From Bacteroidota bacterium (GTDB lineage: Bacteria > Bacteroidota > Bacteroidia > Flavobacteriales_D > Crocinitomicaceae): a stretch of 64,000 nt of DNA. The position numbers and the translations under genes were made by a program. The stretch is from positions 248,001-312,000 of the forward strand of contig JASBTZ010000013.1 of the NCBI GenBank assembly GCA_030148165.1. Reading direction: 5' to 3'. This document shows, in pieces, positions 4,019-49,397 of this stretch. Under the pieces are notes generated by a model that saw nothing but the letters and a program-made list of their open reading frames with translations, ran no database searches and was not told the DNA's origin. How positions within the stretch are numbered: the first letter of the stretch is position 1; every line of letters begins with the position of its first letter.

Positions 4019-7000
4019 ATGTCATTGAAAACAACCCGGCTACTGTTCTTCCTGGTAGTATCGCTGCTACTATCATTCAACTCGAATGCCCAACAGGATA
4101 ATGTCTTAATTATATACAATTCTTCCTGGGGAACTCAAGGTACATTTAACTGTGTTCAGGATTATGCCGGAGCCAATGGGAATTTTACGTTATGTCCCAT
4201 GCCGAATGGAACAAATGTGCCTGCTCCACCGTGCGTAACTAATTTATGCAGTTACGATGTGATTATGGTTCAGGCAACTTATAGTTCCTTAGACCCCGCA
4301 TTTATTGCTCAGTTAATAGCTTATCTTCAATGCGGAGGAAATCTATACTTCCAAAATGATATTGGCTCTGGTCCACAAGCACAGGCACAGCAAAACATGA
4401 ATGATCTTCTGGCTGCGATCGGTCAGCCACCTATAACCTTAACACAGGAAATGGGAAGTTACCCTAACCAACAGCCGGTAATAGATGTTGGTACTTCGGG
4501 AATCACAAATCTTTGTTCTATCTCTCCTCTTTATTATGCTTCCGGAGGTCTTTTAAGTGGGCCCGGACTGGCAAATGCTGCCACGGTTGATTTGCCGATA
4601 GGGACAATTGCTGCGTTTTGGCAAACACCCTGGGGTGGAGTCCTTGGTTTGGGAGGAGAATTTTACACGAGTGGCAACTGGTCTGGCTCCTGTCTTCCAG
4701 GATCCGGCGAAATGGTATGGGGATTCATGAGTACCACAAACCCCGGTTGTGTAACCGTTTTGGCAGACTTTACGCCATCCAGTACTACTATTTGCGCTGG
4801 AGACTCGATTACGGTCACCGATGTGAGTATAGGTGATAGTCTAAATGCCTGGAACTGGGTGTTCAATGGTGGAAATCCCGGTAGTTCAACGTTACAGGAT
4901 CCCGGTTTTATCAGTTACGCAAATCCCGGAACATTTGATATTACCTTAACGGTAACGGATACTTCTGGTGTCACAGATGACACGACCATGCAGATCACGG
5001 TTACTTCTTGTCCGCCAACGGCTTCTTTCAGTGTCATTGATACAGTCTGTGCAGGGACCCCGATAACGGTAACCGACCTGAGTACTTCACCAACGCCCAT
5101 CCAAACATGGGCCTGGGATTTTACCGGTGGAACGCCATCAAGCTCTACTCAACAAAACCCAGGAAACATCGTTTACAATACAGCGGGTAATTACAATATC
5201 ACATTGACCGTTACAAGTGCATCAGGGTCGGATGATACAACGATAACTTTAGTCGTCATACCTTGTCTGCCCGAAGCCTCCTTTAGTGTCATCGATACGG
5301 TTTGTGTAGGAACACCTATAACGGTGACAGATCTAAGTTCAGCACCAACACCTATTCAAACATGGGACTGGGATTTTACCGGTGGAACACCGGCAAGCTC
5401 TACCCAGCAGAACCCGGGAAGCATCGTCTACAATACTCCAGGTAACTATGATATTACTTTAACCATAACGAGCGCAACCGGTTCTGATGACACGACCATT
5501 ACCATTGTTGTTGAGTCATGTCCACCGATTGCATCCTTTAGTGTTATTGATTCAATTTGTGAAGGTCAGCCGTTTACAGTTACCGATCTAAGTACCGCTC
5601 CTACACCTATTCAAACATGGGCCTGGGATTTTACCGGAGGAATCCCTTCGAGCTCTAATCAACAGAATCCCGGAAACATCGTATATAACACACCTGGAAC
5701 TTATAATATTACATTAACCGTCACGAATGCTTCAGGGTCAGACGATACTACTATCACAGTCGTCATTTTGGATTGTTCACCCCCGACAGCAATTTTCGCT
5801 ATTCCTAATGACACGATTTGCGTCAATGAGTGTTTTGCACCGATTGATCAAAGCACTTCCCCACTGCCTATCGTTCAATGGGATTGGACTTTTAGCGGTG
5901 GAAATCCAGGTGTTGGAAATGGCCAAAATCCAGGCAATGTTTGCTATAACAGTCCGGGACTTTACGATATTACTTTAACTGTCACCAATGACATTGGTCT
6001 GATCGACGATACAACCATTCAAGTCTATGTTCAATCGTGTAATCCGACAGCGTCATTTAGCGTCATAGATACTGTTTGCGCAGGAGACCAAGTGATTCTA
6101 ACTGATCTGAGTACTTCACAGTTCGGGATTCAATCCTGGGATTGGTCCATGAACGGTGCAACCCCTTCATCCTCCAATGTTCAGGATCCCGGACCTATTG
6201 TTTACAATGTTCCTGGAGTCTACAACATTACACTTACTGTAAGTGATTTTTCAGGAAGTGACGATACAACGATCACTTTAGTTGTAATTAACTGTGGATT
6301 ACCGACAGCCATTTTCTCAATCCCGGGAGACACACTCTGCCCTGGAGATTGTATTACACCAATTGAGATGAGCGTTTCGCCGACTCCAATTCTAACCTGG
6401 ACATGGAATTTCACGGGTGGAAATCCTTCCAGCAGTGATGCTCAAAATCCGGGGACGATTTGTTATCCAAATAGTGGGGTTTTCCCTATTACATTAACCG
6501 TCACCAATATCGCAGGGAGTCATGACACGACCCTTTATGTGGTTGTTGATAATCCACCGATAGCCAACTTTGGTTATACGCCTCCAACGCCAGTCGAAAA
6601 CGAGACTGTATTCCTACATGATCAGTCTACAGGAGCTGTTAATTGGAACTGGTTCATCAATGGTGAAAACTTTGATATTCAGAATCCAATAATAAGCTTT
6701 GAAGAGCCGGGAACGTATCCTGTCTTCCTCATGGTGGAAAGCGATGCCGGATGCATTGATACGATCACCAAATACATCTATGTAGAAGAAGAGTTGATTT
6801 ATTACGTGCCTAATACTTTTACTCCGGATGCAGATGCCTTCAATAATGTGTTTCAACCGGTTTTCACGTCTGGATTCGATCCATACGACTATCAATTAAG
6901 AATCTATAACCGTTGGGGACAGCTGATCTTTGAATCGAATGACCCTGAAATTGGATGGGACGGTTCCTATGGATCAAAGGGTCAGATTTCTCTTGTACAG

Positions 7001-42625: not shown

Positions 42626-44803
42626 TTATCTTCTTAATCCAATGCTGTAGAACCTTCTGTTGTCAATAACATCTGCTCTCTCGATTAGACCCTTAACAGC
42701 ATCACCGGAGAGCTTAGCTCTAGCAGTAGAAAGCAATTGATTTCGTTCGACTTCATAATCTTTGGCTACAGGAACCTCATCCGTCCGATCGATTCGAATG
42801 ACATAAACACCCTGTTTACCCTCGATTGGTTGTGTTTGCTGGCCATCCTTTAAGCCTGTATAAAGTGCTCCAACAACACCTGCCTCGAATCCAGCGCTAG
42901 CAATTTGTGGATTCGCAAATGTTACATCTGCTTTTTGGATTGGGTTAGCGTCAGAAGCAAGTTCCGTCAAAGTCTTTTTCATCATTTGTGCTTTCAAACG
43001 CTTCACTTTCTGATCTTGGATATAGTTTGCTCTAACCTTATCTTCGACATCCTCAAAGTTCGTTTCACCTTCGGTACGAATAGCGGCAAGAACTGCAATC
43101 AGAAATTTATCTTGGTCACGTATTGGTGATTCGATAAGGTCTCCGACAGCCGCTTCTTCTTTGAAGGCCAATTCAAGAATTTTATCTTCGGCAAGTTTTG
43201 TGTTGAAGGCTGTCATACGAGGACTTTTCTCACTAATGTTAACCGGTCTTGAGAAGTATCCTTCTTGCTTGGCAACGGTATCGAATATCGCAACCATTTC
43301 TTTTGCGTCCTTCGCTTTACTCATCTCATCATCCAGTTTCCAAAGTAATTTGTAGACACTTGTTTCAATTTCAGATAAAGTAGCGTCACTCGTTTTAAGT
43401 GTTTTGCTGATAATTCCAAGTCTCGGATATTTAGGCCCTTTTCTGTCTAGTACTTCAATGATGTGAATTCCATATTGAGATCGCACTTGTCCTATTTCAC
43501 CAATTGGCTTATCGGCACAGTAAACTGCAAATGGCTGCACCATTTCAGAAAAGAAGAAGTCTCCTAATTCACCTCCCTTTTCTTTCGATCCGGTATCTGT
43601 ACTATACTTGTTCACGAATTCAGTGAAGTTGTCGTGGTTGATAACGGCAAGAATACTGTCAACTCTTGCTTCAGCCACAGACTCCTGTCCTTCCGTCACC
43701 GGAATCAGGATGTGTCGCGCGTTGATCGTATCTTCAGTAAATCCAATAATCTTAGCAATGTTGAATGTACCCATGTGCTCATATGGTCCAATGATGTCCC
43801 CAACAGAAGAATTCATAAAAGTAGAATCCATACTTCTAGGGAACGTCAAGTGTTGCTTAGCCTTTCTATGCGATTCCGGCAGAGCTGTACTATATGGGTT
43901 CGTTGTAAAGAATCTCATATCGCTGTACTTTACGATATAGGCAGAATCATTTTCCGCAGTCGCCAGGTCATTTCTGTATGTTTCCATTTTATCATGGAAC
44001 TTGGCAGAATCTTCAGCTGACGGCTGGATAGCTATATCGAAGAAGTTAATGGAGCGCATGGACTCTTTATTCTCATACTTCTTTTCGTCTTTATGCTCTT
44101 CAAAATATGCTTTCAGATCTTCATCCGTAACTTCGATGTCTTCATCCTTTATTTCACTATATCTTCTCAACACAAAAGAGATGCTCTTTTTCTCTTTCTG
44201 AGCATAATAGTCTTCTTTTGCCTCTAGCTTTGTTACATAAATTCCTTGCTGAAGGATTTGAAAATACTTTTCTCTTTTACGTTTTTCAATATACCCTTGT
44301 TCGATTTCTTCCCACAGCTTTTGGTCCTCTGCTTTTTCTGATGATTTCATGTCATCAATTTTAGCCTGCAGCAAATTCTTGTTGAACATTCCGGTTGCTG
44401 AATCCTTGAAGTTGCTCGCCAGATCTGGCATTACCTCAAAGCCGTCTTCTCCGAAGAGATAAGCATCAAATTCGTTCTGGCCGACTGTGATTCCAAGCGC
44501 ATCATATTCTTGTCGGATAACCAGATCCTGAACAAAACTTTTCCAAACAGCAGATTCATCAACAGGCTCAGGTTCCTTGTTCTGTTGCTCTGCAGTTCGT
44601 TCATTGTTTACTCTCTGAATATTTATTGCCTCCTGAAAATCGACAGGGTCAACTTTTTCTCCATAAACAGTTCCTAATCCATACACCTCCTCAAGGCCTC
44701 CGCTAATTCGTTGCCAGTCACCAAGGATAAAAGCTATTAATGCTCCCCCTACGATCACCAGAATTAACCAGGATTTTTCCCGAATTTTACCAATTATTGC
44801 CAT
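42626..44803 (-). CDS. PpiD/SurA-like periplasmic peptidyl-prolyl isomerase
   Basis: A 725-residue membrane-anchored chaperone. The N-terminus MAIIGKIREKSWLILVIVGGALIAFILGDW is a short cytoplasmic piece followed by a transmembrane anchor (about 12-30), as in PpiD. A SurA-N-like helical region (about 60-230) precedes a parvulin domain (about 352-460: INARHILIP, GGELGDFFFSEMVQPF, VRSQYGIHIIEVLDRKG), and a second C-terminal parvulin-like half (about 600-700) is more diverged. It assists folding of outer-membrane or exported proteins, of which this window has many. Own terminator downstream. The 44804-44951 gap upstream has no gene. Confidence 0.88.
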   Translation of the reverse strand: MAIIGKIREKSWLILVIVGGALIAFILGDWQRISGGLEEVYGLGTVYGEKVDPVDFQEAINIQRVNNERTAEQQNKEPEPVDESAVWKSFVQDLVIRQEYDALGITVGQNEFDAYLFGEDGFEVMPDLASNFKDSATGMFNKNLLQAKIDDMKSSEKAEDQKLWEEIEQGYIEKRKREKYFQILQQGIYVTKLEAKEDYYAQKEKKSISFVLRRYSEIKDEDIEVTDEDLKAYFEEHKDEKKYENKESMRSINFFDIAIQPSAEDSAKFHDKMETYRNDLATAENDSAYIVKYSDMRFFTTNPYSTALPESHRKAKQHLTFPRSMDSTFMNSSVGDIIGPYEHMGTFNIAKIIGFTEDTINARHILIPVTEGQESVAEARVDSILAVINHDNFTEFVNKYSTDTGSKEKGGELGDFFFSEMVQPFAVYCADKPIGEIGQVRSQYGIHIIEVLDRKGPKYPRLGIISKTLKTSDATLSEIETSVYKLLWKLDDEMSKAKDAKEMVAIFDTVAKQEGYFSRPVNISEKSPRMTAFNTKLAEDKILELAFKEEAAVGDLIESPIRDQDKFLIAVLAAIRTEGETNFEDVEDKVRANYIQDQKVKRLKAQMMKKTLTELASDANPIQKADVTFANPQIASAGFEAGVVGALYTGLKDGQQTQPIEGKQGVYVIRIDRTDEVPVAKDYEVERNQLLSTARAKLSGDAVKGLIERADVIDNRRFYSIGLRR

Positions 44804-44951: not shown

Positions 44952-47900
44952 TTAATTATTCTTTTTTTCTTTAGAATTACTGTTGTTCCTTCCTTCACTG
45001 GTAGTTGCTTCCGAATTCTTTTGCGTTTCTTCTGCTGCTTTCTTCTTGACAGCTTCTTCAGCAGCTTTACGTTTTGCTTCTTCATCTACCTTCTTCTTGG
45101 CAGCTTCTTCCGCAGCCTCCTGCTTTTGCTTTTCTAATCGGGCCAGTTCAAGTTCTTTTTGTTTTTCTATGTCAGTTTGTAGTCCTCCACCCTTTCGATC
45201 TGGTTGAGTAGAGCCACTATTAACTTTTGTGCCTCCACTTTCTTCACCAGACCCTTTATTTCCGTTGCCGGATCCTCCACTATTTCCATTATTGCCTGAC
45301 CCATTTGAACCGGAACCAACATTTCCTCCGCCACCTGATCCTCCAATCGTATTACCTTGACCTGAACCAGATTCGACGTTAACATTACCGGACCCCGAGT
45401 TGGATCCAGAAGAGTTATTGTTTCCTCCCGAGTTTCCACTTCCACCTGAATTGTTATTGCCTCCAGAATTTCCACTTCCGCCTGAATTGCTGTTTCCTCC
45501 GGAACCTCCATTATTGCCAGAATTTCCGTTTCCACCAGAGTTTCCGTTTCCGCCAGGGTGCTCCTCCTCATCAGGACACGGTCCTAACTTGTCGCCGTGC
45601 GCCTGGTGTGCTGGCCATGCCGATAACGGAATCTCCAACTGCTGAGGGTTGCCTATGTTCCCCGGAGGGTAGTGACAGATTGTGATCTTCTCTTCCGGCT
45701 CCTCCTCTTGAGGGCATGGGCCTAACTTGTCTCCATGCGCCTGGTGTGCCGGCCATGCCGATAACGGAATCTCCAACTGTTGAGGATTACCTGTATTCCC
45801 CGGAGGGTAGTGACAGATTGTGATCTTCTCTTCCGGCTCCTCTTCTTCAGGGCATGGACCTAACTTGTCTCCATGCGCCTGGTGTGCCGGCCATGCTGAT
45901 AACGGGATCTCTAATTGCTGAGGGTTGCCTGTATTCCCCGGAGGGTAGTGACAGATTACGATCTTTTCCTCTACAGGTGTATCTACCACCTCTTTTTTGC
46001 GAATGATCGTAAAGGTCTTGATACTTCTTCCGCAATCGGTTGTTGCAGCAATTTCAACTGTATTTGTACCTACATTCAGGTTTACTGTTCTTGTGAATAA
46101 CTTCGTTGCTACATTGTAAGCTCCCCCAGTAAAAGTTGTTCCATTCACTTTCACCATTACCACATTACTACTCGTAATTCCTTCAATCAAAGCCTTCACT
46201 TCATAGGATGCTTGACTCACAGTAACAGAGCCTCCAGAAGGACTAACCATTGTTATAGCCGGAGTATTACATGGTTGATGTAATATCGTAATCGACTCGG
46301 TTACAGTTCCACAATCATTTGTTGCAGTTATCTGAATCACATTCGTTCCAACGTTTAAGTTTACAGTTGAGCTAACCGTGCCATTCGCGAATGTAAACGG
46401 CTTGTTTCCTCCATTTACACGGAATCCGATGTTGCTCTTTGTTAACACATTTGAAACCGTTGCTTTAACCGTTAGTCTATTCTCTGTAACTGTACTGTTA
46501 TCCTCTGTCAAGAAAGCAATTACCGGAAGTTCACAGTCATTGTGATTAATGACGATTGTTTCATTATCACTACCGCATTCGTTTGTTGCAGTGATTTTAA
46601 TGGTGTTCTTACCGCTTACCAATGTTACGTTTGACTGGAATGTGCCGTTCGAATTATTATAGTAAAAGTTCGAAGTGTTCATTCCATTTACTGTCATCTG
46701 AACATTATTTGCTTTAGGCGAAATATTCGCTTTGATAACATATTGTTCCTGGTCCGTGTTTATATTATTATTTGACGGTACCGTTACGTTGATAACAGGA
46801 ACCCTACAAGTAACATAGCTTATGTTTACTGTTTCTGAAGACGTACCACAACCATTTGTAGCCAATACTTGAATGGAATTCGCGCCTTCCTGCAGGAAGA
46901 CACTCGCTTCAAACTGATCTGTTGTTTCATTGTAAAAGAAATTAGTTGTACTAACCCCGTTCACTTTGAAAACAATGTGATCTCTGTTTGCTACTTTTTC
47001 AATCTTCGCACGAACAGTGATCATCTGCTGATCCGTTTCCATGCCATTCGTTGCTGGATTAATGATGTCGATAATCGGGTTAACACAGCCTCCGTTTGTA
47101 AGATTGTTGTTATTGTTGTTTTGGTTATCAACACTGCCCCCGGCGTTGCCTCGAACACCTATATGAAATCGCAAGTAGCCACTTGTATAATGATATATGT
47201 CGTTCACCCATCTGTTATCAACAGTACTAGGGTCAACAAAACCATCCCAGTCATCCTTCATCGCGAACGATGTCTTATGCTCAATCCCCAATGAGAATTT
47301 CGGTCCAATCTGATAGCCCAAACCTAATCCAAGACTCGGCACAAAATCAACATTATAACCAAGATCTTCACTGCCCTCATTCATAGCTGTTTCGCTCAGT
47401 CCATCCAGCGTAGTAAAGCCATTTGAATAATCGTAATACCCTGAGGTCATAAGTGAGCTGTCCGCATTGTACAAATCACTATAGGTTTGATTCCATGCGA
47501 TATTTGCACCTGCAAAAATGTATGGGTCCCAACCAGTCGTTTCGCGTAACCTATTTAAATGGATCGCTAATTCAAGTCCAAGCTCACGCGTTGTGTTCAT
47601 GAAGTTATTAACCGTGTATCCAACACTATCCTTATAGTATTTGAACTTTTCAGGTAAATACGTTCCCTGGTAATTTGAAAGACCAGTTGTATCTGTGTCC
47701 TGACCATACCATTGACCAGCAAGGAATCTCATTCTGAGATCGAATGATGTGCGCTTTCCATAATTATAATTGAACTGTTTACCCAGAATAAATCCCCATC
47801 CAGCGTAAGTGTCGTTTTTAATATCTGTTGAGTTCCATGTTCCTCCAACGTTAAATCCAAAGAACCATCTGGAATCTGTTTCATAATCAACTTTCTGGGC

Positions 47901-47954
47901 AAATGATGAATTTGCCAGCATGATGCCTAGTGCTAAAATTAAAATCCTTTTCAT
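44952..47954 (-). CDS. Mosaic outer-membrane/surface protein: barrel, Ig-like repeats, triplicated Cys/His module, Gly/Ser/Asn linker, charged helix
   Basis: A 1000-residue exported protein. Signal MKRILILALGIMLANSSFAQ; residues about 20-270 form a likely barrel (WFFGFNVGGTWN, SLGLGLGYQIGPKFSLGIEH, YLRFHIGVRGN); about 290-660 hold four Ig-like units with conserved NxIxITATNxCGxxxExI. Then come three copies of a 46-residue module, EEKITICHYPPGNxGNPQQL to HQAHGDKLGPCP, with two Cys and several His per copy. A low-complexity Gly/Ser/Asn stretch (about 800-910) leads to a Lys/Glu/Ala-rich coiled-coil (about 925-985). No T9SS sorting domain and no OmpA domain are visible. The Cys/His module is a motif seen in many secreted bacterial proteins and may bind metal or form disulfides. 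Upstream gap 47955-48104 is divergent with the type B gene. Confidence 0.78.
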   Translation of the reverse strand: MKRILILALGIMLANSSFAQKVDYETDSRWFFGFNVGGTWNSTDIKNDTYAGWGFILGKQFNYNYGKRTSFDLRMRFLAGQWYGQDTDTTGLSNYQGTYLPEKFKYYKDSVGYTVNNFMNTTRELGLELAIHLNRLRETTGWDPYIFAGANIAWNQTYSDLYNADSSLMTSGYYDYSNGFTTLDGLSETAMNEGSEDLGYNVDFVPSLGLGLGYQIGPKFSLGIEHKTSFAMKDDWDGFVDPSTVDNRWVNDIYHYTSGYLRFHIGVRGNAGGSVDNQNNNNNNLTNGGCVNPIIDIINPATNGMETDQQMITVRAKIEKVANRDHIVFKVNGVSTTNFFYNETTDQFEASVFLQEGANSIQVLATNGCGTSSETVNISYVTCRVPVINVTVPSNNNINTDQEQYVIKANISPKANNVQMTVNGMNTSNFYYNNSNGTFQSNVTLVSGKNTIKITATNECGSDNETIVINHNDCELPVIAFLTEDNSTVTENRLTVKATVSNVLTKSNIGFRVNGGNKPFTFANGTVSSTVNLNVGTNVIQITATNDCGTVTESITILHQPCNTPAITMVSPSGGSVTVSQASYEVKALIEGITSSNVVMVKVNGTTFTGGAYNVATKLFTRTVNLNVGTNTVEIAATTDCGRSIKTFTIIRKKEVVDTPVEEKIVICHYPPGNTGNPQQLEIPLSAWPAHQAHGDKLGPCPEEEEPEEKITICHYPPGNTGNPQQLEIPLSAWPAHQAHGDKLGPCPQEEEPEEKITICHYPPGNIGNPQQLEIPLSAWPAHQAHGDKLGPCPDEEEHPGGNGNSGGNGNSGNNGGSGGNSNSGGSGNSGGNNNSGGSGNSGGNNNSSGSNSGSGNVNVESGSGQGNTIGGSGGGGNVGSGSNGSGNNGNSGGSGNGNKGSGEESGGTKVNSGSTQPDRKGGGLQTDIEKQKELELARLEKQKQEAAEEAAKKKVDEEAKRKAAEEAVKKKAAEETQKNSEATTSEGRNNSNSKEKKNN
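45561..45974. repeat. Three-unit, 138-bp tandem repeat encoding the Cys/His module
   Basis: Units begin at 45561, 45699 and 45837 and are exactly 138 bases each. They are nearly identical except for a few substitutions; most differences lie in the acidic linker between units and at third codon positions. Confidence 0.9.
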
Positions 47955-48104: not shown

Positions 48105-49397
48105 GTGAGAATTATCGTTGTTATTTTTTTGTTAATGATCTTTTCGGGGTGGAATTACACTCATGGACAAGAGGCCAATAACAACTGCTCTAATGCGGTC
48201 GAACTGTGCCCAGGGCAAGTGGTAACGGCGAATAATATTGGTGCCAATGTTACCTTTTGTCCGAACTGTGAGGATGACTTCAATTATTGCTTCACAACAG
48301 ACAACACGATATGGTTTGAGTTTACCACGAACCAAACCGGAGGCAATGTGCAAGTGGATGTCTCAAATCTGATTTTTGAGAATAATCCCGGACAGGACAA
48401 CGAATTACAGGCTACTATTATTCAAGCCGCTGTGCCATGCGATGCCTCTACCTATACACAAATTGGAAACTGTCTTTCGAACGAAACAGCGAACTTTACA
48501 CTAACAGGAATGGGCTTAACCGCAAATACGACCTATTATGTGGTTATTGACGGTGATATGACTGGAGCGGGAATTACTTCTCCAGCAGAATGCACTTTTG
48601 ATATATCTGTGAGTGGGCCAGGTGTAGATCGTCCATTATCGATACTAACGGTTACCGCAGACACAACGAGCATATGTCTCAATGATATTGCCGGCTTTGC
48701 TGTTTCATTAACAGATTGTCCTTCCAATGGCAACTTCGAATGGTACATCAATGATTCTCTGGTTGCTGTTACTACAGATACCTTGTTCTTTACAAGTGAA
48801 TTGCAGGATGGAGATATCGTTACTGTTGAAACCACCTGTTATTCCTTATGTCCTGACTCGGTGAGTGCTAGCAGTGTGCCAATAAGTGTCTATTCCTTTT
48901 TTATAGATGCAGGAGTTGACCTAACTATTAACAATGGAACTGCTGTTCAACTCCTGGGCTCAACTACTGCTACTGATTATTCATGGGCTCCTGCATTCTT
49001 AGTTAGTGATCCAAATGTGATTAATCCAATCGCCGACCCATCCGAAACAACCACTTTTGCTTTCACGGCAACTCAAAATGGATGCACCCTTACCGATTAT
49101 GTCACAATTACTGTAATACGCGACCTTGAAATTCCAAACACCTTTTCTCCGAATGGAGATGGTAATAATGAAAGTTGGATCATTCCCGGCATTGATACCT
49201 ATCCTGATAATCTAATGATTATCTATGATCGTTGGGGACAGGAGATATTTAAAACGACTGGTTATTCTGAGATCCGTTCATGGAACGGAAAGACTAAACG
49301 TGGAGGAAATGCTTCTGAGGGAGTCTATTATTATGTGCTTGACCTGAGGGACGGAGTGAGCGACATTATTAACGGGACCATAACCTTGATTCGATGA
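48105..49397 (+). CDS. Secreted protein with T9SS type B sorting domain, paired with PorP/SprF
   Basis: A 430-residue exported protein starting at GTG 48105 (MRIIVVIFLLMIFSGWNYTHGQ signal); a purine-rich GAAG lies just before. The N-terminal domain (about 23-170) is a Cys-rich beta-sandwich (NNCSNAVELCPG, WFEFTTNQTGGNVQVDVSN, TYYVVIDGD) of a kind common at the front of T9SS proteins. An Ig-like region (about 180-340) follows, and the type B C-terminal domain IPNTFSPNGDGNNESWIIP, YDRWGQEIFKTTGYS, RSWNGKTKRGG and VYYYVLDLRDG finishes it. Its stop overlaps the start of porP/sprF as ATGA, so the exporter partner and cargo are made together. Confidence 0.87.
   Translation: MRIIVVIFLLMIFSGWNYTHGQEANNNCSNAVELCPGQVVTANNIGANVTFCPNCEDDFNYCFTTDNTIWFEFTTNQTGGNVQVDVSNLIFENNPGQDNELQATIIQAAVPCDASTYTQIGNCLSNETANFTLTGMGLTANTTYYVVIDGDMTGAGITSPAECTFDISVSGPGVDRPLSILTVTADTTSICLNDIAGFAVSLTDCPSNGNFEWYINDSLVAVTTDTLFFTSELQDGDIVTVETTCYSLCPDSVSASSVPISVYSFFIDAGVDLTINNGTAVQLLGSTTATDYSWAPAFLVSDPNVINPIADPSETTTFAFTATQNGCTLTDYVTITVIRDLEIPNTFSPNGDGNNESWIIPGIDTYPDNLMIIYDRWGQEIFKTTGYSEIRSWNGKTKRGGNASEGVYYYVLDLRDGVSDIINGTITLIR

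Follow-up and report, generated by a model that had tools for sequence, protein, structure and literature searches.

What does a short module rich in cysteine and histidine do when it stands three times in tandem within a large envelope protein? The question is raised by a gene of a Crocinitomicaceae bacterium (Bacteroidota), read here in the window, that is, the whole stretch of 64,000 nucleotides that was analysed (contig JASBTZ010000013.1). The gene, its parts and two conserved neighbours are located as follows, in window coordinates:

44952..47954, minus strand: gene of a predicted outer-membrane protein of 1000 amino acids (aa) carrying three modules (ORF list; syntenic orthologues)
47898..47954, minus strand: putative signal peptide, aa 1-19, ending in SSFA (sequence reading)
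47160..47867, minus strand: predicted N-terminal eight-stranded OmpA-like outer-membrane barrel, about aa 30-265 (AF2 model and Foldseek)
45990..47087, minus strand: Ig-like repeats, about aa 290-655 (Pfam PF09136 Glucodextran_B, PF12733 Cadherin-like)
45849..45965, minus strand: module copy 1, aa 664-702
45828..45848, minus strand: acidic linker 1, aa 703-709
45711..45827, minus strand: module copy 2, aa 710-748 (the copy modelled with AF2)
45690..45710, minus strand: acidic linker 2, aa 749-755
45573..45689, minus strand: module copy 3, aa 756-794
45240..45554, minus strand: Gly/Ser/Asn-rich low-complexity stretch, about aa 801-905 (sequence reading; 18/36 bp repeats)
44955..45182, minus strand: charged Lys/Glu/Ala-rich coiled-coil-like tail, about aa 925-1000 (sequence reading)
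42626..44803, minus strand: SurA/PpiD-type peptidyl-prolyl isomerase, conserved neighbour (Pfam SurA_N_2 E 3.4e-20, Rotamase_3 E 1.8e-19; synteny)
48105..49397, plus strand: CHU_C (type IX) sorting-domain protein, conserved neighbour (Pfam CHU_C E 1.6e-22; synteny)

The order of these parts, from signal peptide through barrel, Ig-like repeats, modules and Gly/Ser/Asn stretch to the charged coiled-coil-like tail, is the one described in the original prediction. The two absences that it named are also found. The six Pfam families listed for the 1000-aa protein at E <= 10 include no type IX sorting domain (Por_Secre_tail or CHU_C) and no OmpA peptidoglycan-binding domain; CHU_C is detected by the same Pfam library in the neighbour at 48105-49397. 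The Ig-like stalk matches Glucodextran_B (E 4.6e-14) and Cadherin-like (E 7e-6), in four stretches each and above the curated cut-offs; these bacterial Ig-type repeats cover the stalk before the modules but not the modules themselves. The order was said to be unusual, which is too strong, since the syntenic orthologues form a family and the order recurs in similar form in at least one archaeal protein. Elsewhere in the window, a further tandem repeat lies at 5025-5726 (unit of about 255 bp, 2.7 copies, 75% matches).

At the DNA level, the module array occupies 45573-45965, with a period of 46 codons (138 bp) and three copies of a 39-residue module, each containing both CHYPPGN and HQAHGDKLGPC; the linkers between them read EEEEPEE and QEEEPEE, and Tandem Repeats Finder returns a period of 138, 2.9 copies, 90% matches and a score of 665. 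An exact 138-bp triplication had been proposed for an interval that does contain this array. The three copies and the period stand, but the exactness does not: the 138-nt units differ at 12 (copies 1 and 2), 23 (1 and 3) and 20 (2 and 3) positions. Over the 117 nt of the 39-codon core, the same pairs are separated by 10, 14 and 11 differences, 8, 11 and 10 of them synonymous, and NG86 estimates between copies give a dN of 0.01-0.03 and a dS of 0.40-0.63. Because the copies differ mostly at synonymous sites, the protein sequence of each of them appears to be constrained. An assembly artefact was rejected as the source of the array, given that the copies can be told apart (12-23 of 138 nt) and that arrays recur in other species. 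The window copies, 10-14 of 117 nt apart, are closer to each other than to the modules of seven other loci (21-42 of 117), so that amplification or homogenisation probably took place within this lineage, selection on the protein maintaining the array thereafter. Acidic linkers were rejected as a general part of the module: flanks more acidic than the rest of the protein are enriched in the barrel/Ig family (44 of 52) but found in only 29 of 55 cases in other proteins, where a length filter had dropped 8 of 63.

The copy number of the module differs between species. For barrel homologues, identity is about 43-57% in closer relatives and 25-32% in distant ones, with two between, at 36 and 40%, and many of their loci keep the same neighbours, namely the SurA/PpiD-type isomerase and DprA on one side and the CHU_C protein and PorP/SprF on the other. 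In uncut proteins that have kept one or more of these neighbours, the parsed modules number 1 (L033), 4 (L034), 6 (L037), 2 (L038), 6 (L042), 5 (L046), 2 (L051), 5 (L078, the weakest orthologue, with a barrel 36% identical and one neighbour) and 4 (L092), next to 3 in the window protein; the syntenic orthologue L072, cut at its 3' side, has 19. The suggestion that copy number could vary is thus borne out between species, with 1 to 6 modules at the same syntenic locus in uncut proteins. Another orthologue cut at its 3' side, L044, ends in a long EEAAKKKA repeat over the last 60 residues of its open frame; this resembles the periplasm-spanning helix of TolA, and would be in line with a periplasmic tail.

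The module is not confined to this family. With a window copy as query, matches at E <= 0.01 turn up in 32 of 60 relatives, and in 28 of the 34 relatives of the same genus, its own genome counted; with a small profile, the phylum yields 26 of 395 genomes at E <= 0.001. When genome contigs were scanned, 263 of 392 candidate stretches were confirmed and 78 loci were kept; most carry Bacteroidota titles, and the others are titled Lentisphaerae, Bdellovibrionales, Deltaproteobacteria, Burkholderiales, Peregrinibacteria and Nitrosotalea, many records being metagenome bins of which single titles may be wrong. Samples drawn from the phyla of five of these yielded 22 of 140 genomes around the Deltaproteobacteria-titled centre, 30 of 249 (Burkholderiales), 2 of 115 (Lentisphaerae), 6 of 121 (Nitrosotalea) and 5 of 116 (Peregrinibacteria), counts that take in the centre genome, chosen for having the module, and a few weak matches. 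Isolates bearing it include Subsaximicrobium wynnwilliamsii and the archaeon Halorussus limi (E 6e-7). Spread by phages was considered and rejected, as two tblastn queries gave no module match in 50,697 phage records; matches on plasmids are haloarchaeal only. One Deltaproteobacteria-titled genome (G455) has 24 module matches scattered over many contigs.

Despite this spread, no name could be attached to the module. A single window module matches no Pfam or NCBIfam family at E <= 10; the triple module gives four weak Pfam matches (E 0.0034-0.089), all below the cut-offs and mutually unrelated; and 138 modules scanned singly reach a best E of 0.021 in Pfam and 0.077 in NCBIfam. No zinc-finger family is among the seven Pfam families matched by any of these 138 modules at E <= 1. 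Solved structures show no sequence or profile match to it, and no match to the module motif strings was found in the literature searched, where a description in other terms is possible. By sequence comparison, the module is a member of a widespread, unnamed mini-domain of apparently exported bacterial and archaeal proteins.

The proteins that carry it are diverse. Where a stop codon lies upstream, 80 of 89 module proteins have an N-terminal hydrophobic segment; other ORFs from the same loci have one in 193 of 432 cases. Lipoprotein-like starts are common by eye; according to the count of hydrophobic segments, which is a crude rule, most module proteins look exported. Among them are type IX cargo proteins (L084 with Por_Secre_tail, L088 with CHU_C and, below the Pfam cut-off, L104) and a protein with RHS_repeat according to Pfam (L102); Pfam lists nothing for L109. 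In a Lentisphaerae-titled genome with six module matches, the module lies inside RHS-like proteins (L102, L109, L095 and L166-L169), the last two entries being judged by eye. A prepilin domain is confirmed by Pfam in one of the two L178 proteins and is not confirmed by Pfam in L098. Additionally, in all four inspected loci of one bacterial phylum (L184, L185, L186 and L188), picked for their clustered matches, minor-pilin-like genes are followed by two or three small module-protein genes. In L184, N_methyl is above the Pfam cut-off in two of the three minor-pilin-like genes, PilN and PilO are above cut-off nearby, and the PilX_N and PilV models remain below theirs; in L185, L186 and L188, the term minor-pilin-like denotes a scripted sequence motif. 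The position of these module genes resembles that of PilY1-type components, encoded in the minor-pilin operons of type IV pili. The likeness concerns position only, in module genes of distant relatives, with no shared domain shown. These small secreted module proteins, of one bacterial lineage (L153-L163, L184), mostly share a short terminal tail, R-x-[VI]-x-G-x, for example REVHGQ, present in 18 of 20 listed from L153-L163; the tail looks like a putative sorting or processing signal. Finally, in the archaeal protein L171, bacterial Ig/cadherin-like repeats (Big_9 E 3.3e-38) are joined to one module and to a tail rich in Lys and Glu, in an order like that of the window protein. In the phylum of the Nitrosotalea-titled genome, L171-L174 each combine one module with cadherin-like repeats, a stretch rich in Lys and Glu and an acidic tail; Pfam was run on L171 only.

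The predicted structure of the module is compact. The AF2 model, from an input of window copy 2 and 137 other modules (model residue minus 3 gives the module number), has a beta-beta-alpha topology with a pLDDT of 93.9 and a pTM of 0.71; DSSP places strands at model residues 4-9 and 19-24 and a helix at 25-33. In it, His6 falls at the end of the first strand, His28 in the helix and His31 just past the helix. The beta hairpin and helix, the Cys/His content and the tandem use resemble classical C2H2 zinc fingers, and the predicted beta-beta-alpha fold is shared; in contrast, the module appears to be exported, keeps its Cys scaffold when the His residues are lost and has no zinc-finger match in Pfam. 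A known fold could not be assigned with conviction: Foldseek gave no match to the model at E <= 0.001, and VIA-align gave no Z >= 5 among 83 chains, an absence that excludes nothing.

The chief evidence on how the module works comes from modules that lack the conserved residues. The 411 distinct modules parsed on the two-Cys scaffold (the parse demanded both Cys and dropped 18 further matches, and the search profile had started from His-bearing modules) comprise 330 with His6, His28, His31 and Asp33, 70 with none of these, 5 with His6 only and 6 that are mixed. Four of the mixed modules (L030, L032, L126 and L135) keep the residues, as judged by eye, but have an insertion near the helix, which leaves two truly mixed ones, L128 (H-Y-K-D) and L133 (N-H-H-C), both of which break an all-or-none rule. 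For the triad of His28, His31 and Asp33, counting the four insertion-bearing modules as kept, 334 of the 411 retain all three residues, 75 have lost all three and 2 are mixed, against 185.8 mixed triads expected if the sites were independent; thinning by similarity leaves 39 kept, 18 lost and 2 mixed (n=59). The set is therefore lost jointly, and the lost form has a consistent character of its own. Its 75 modules have Tyr (69) or Phe (6) at position 28 and always Ala (75 of 75) at position 33, Trp25 is present in 66 and His6 is replaced in 70; the set of His, His, His and Asp gives way mostly to Leu/Phe/Tyr, Tyr, Gln/Leu and Ala. Gly32 is invariant both here and in the 330 His-form modules.

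The two Cys behave differently. In a profile alignment of 420 distinct modules that did not depend on them, both are present in 384, a gap stands on one side in 35 and one module has neither. Both states can occur in one protein: among 128 distinct protein frames, several of them cut, 12 contain both states, 6 the lost state only, 104 the His form only and 6 neither. A looser scan returned 487 segments: the four residues are complete in 350, absent from 97 and partly present (one to three) in 40, in an uncleaned table where most of the 33 three-residue segments start, by eye, at the Cys of the preceding module and have an intact CH further on; it also places a segment without the four residues in L138, which is distant but belongs to the same phylum. 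When the four sites are masked, the resulting tree requires 14 state changes, compared with a mean of 69.5 for shuffled labels. The main caveat is this apparent relatedness of the lost-state modules, which cluster on a tree of a kind that is noisy for short sequences. Since the Cys stay in place when the His/Asp set is lost, they look like a scaffold, and the four His/Asp residues like one separable site; the two states would suggest, as their simplest reading, a metal site on a disulfide-held fold. Metal binding or disulfide cross-linking had been predicted from the Cys and His positions. The comparison lends support to the former, in that the residues of the triad stay or go together on a two-Cys scaffold, and points to a disulfide within the module, not to a cross-link between molecules.

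Taken as a whole, the reading that we hold to have somewhat better than an even chance is that of an exported mini-domain with a Cys5-Cys38 disulfide and a metal site of His6, His28, His31 and Asp33, stacked as beads in the envelope in the case of the window protein. Each copy would be a unit some 39 residues long, with a predicted fold of two beta strands in a hairpin plus one helix, and closed by an internal disulfide between Cys5 and Cys38, and the four His/Asp residues would hold one metal ion, most likely zinc. The three units may act as stiff, protease-resistant beads between the Ig-like stalk, putatively anchored in the outer membrane by the OmpA-like barrel, and the flexible charged tail, which probably reaches peptidoglycan or other periplasmic partners. 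The bead role gives no explanation for the single modules in unrelated proteins. A tentative extension, itself rather unlikely, is that two interchangeable forms, one metal-held and one with a hydrophobic core, are mixed within arrays, with the response to metal in the envelope limited to selected beads of a stalk anchored in the outer membrane.

On which side of the outer membrane the modules lie depends on the barrel. A second AF2 model (aa 5-385, from 45 sequences) shows eight barrel strands and one Ig-like domain (pLDDT 80.2, pTM 0.60), and the best solved match of the barrel model is OmpA (9fzc; Foldseek E 9.8e-10, TM 0.70 by target and 0.34 by query). The window protein shares with OmpA/OprF the barrel fold and the order of parts in the model, but instead of a listed OmpA peptidoglycan-binding domain it has Ig-like repeats, modules and a charged tail. 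The surface position given in the original prediction is doubtful with such an eight-stranded barrel, since for OmpA the predominant view places the portion that follows the barrel in the periplasm and takes the barrel to be too small for a polypeptide (PMC7553776). Together with the lack of a listed type IX sorting domain, the barrel model makes the periplasm, as a matter of judgement, appreciably more likely than the surface. The converse, that the modules are extracellular and belong to an adhesive fibre exported by an unknown route, is compatible with the fold proposed here and has a smaller though real share of the probability: related modules occur in type IX cargo (L084, L088), in an RHS-repeat protein (L102), in a prepilin-like protein (L178) and beside minor-pilin-like genes, and the barrel homologue L057 has an open frame of 2020 aa, which is long for the periplasm. 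It is the OmpA-like barrel of eight strands in the model, and the absence of a type IX sorting domain from the families listed for the window protein, that count against it.

The same His/His/His/Asp set could instead bind a ligand such as a glycan, peptidoglycan or haem, or form a hydrogen-bonded site, with the PPGN loop as part of the surface and no structural metal. The good conservation of this loop in the long-loop modules of several phyla fits such a site, as does the way in which single modules are spliced into differing exported proteins and adjoin minor-pilin-like genes, as a binding module would. However, the loop varies in other modules that keep the set, and the residues that mostly replace it in the lost state resemble a core rather than an open site, so that this reading is regarded as improbable. 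Lower still stands the proposal of a metal store or buffer in the envelope, with a capacity set by copy number. The 1 to 6 copies of the uncut syntenic orthologues, with 19 in the one cut at its 3' side, and some long barrel-family arrays entirely of the His form (17 of 17 parsed modules in L071) would agree with it, but other long arrays are mostly in the lost state (16 of 19 in L072, 13 of 14 in L087), which means that copies accumulate without sites, and the four window neighbours tested are the isomerase, the CHU_C protein, PorP/SprF and DprA, with no metal transporter. Least probable of all is that both Cys bind metal alongside the His residues, as in a zinc finger, or form intermolecular disulfides: classical zinc fingers also have Cys and His in a beta-beta-alpha fold, but the two-Cys scaffold persists in modules devoid of the His/Asp set, the Cys count of the window protein is even (14) and most module proteins look exported.

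The larger result concerns the family of which the preferred exported mini-domain is a member, since the window module appears to be part of a widespread, unnamed envelope domain with two states. The His/Asp and Tyr/Ala forms, on one and the same two-Cys scaffold, would offer a clean and cheap test of metal-held versus hydrophobically held folding. Finally, a family model for the module would aid in annotating exported proteins that are now called hypothetical.
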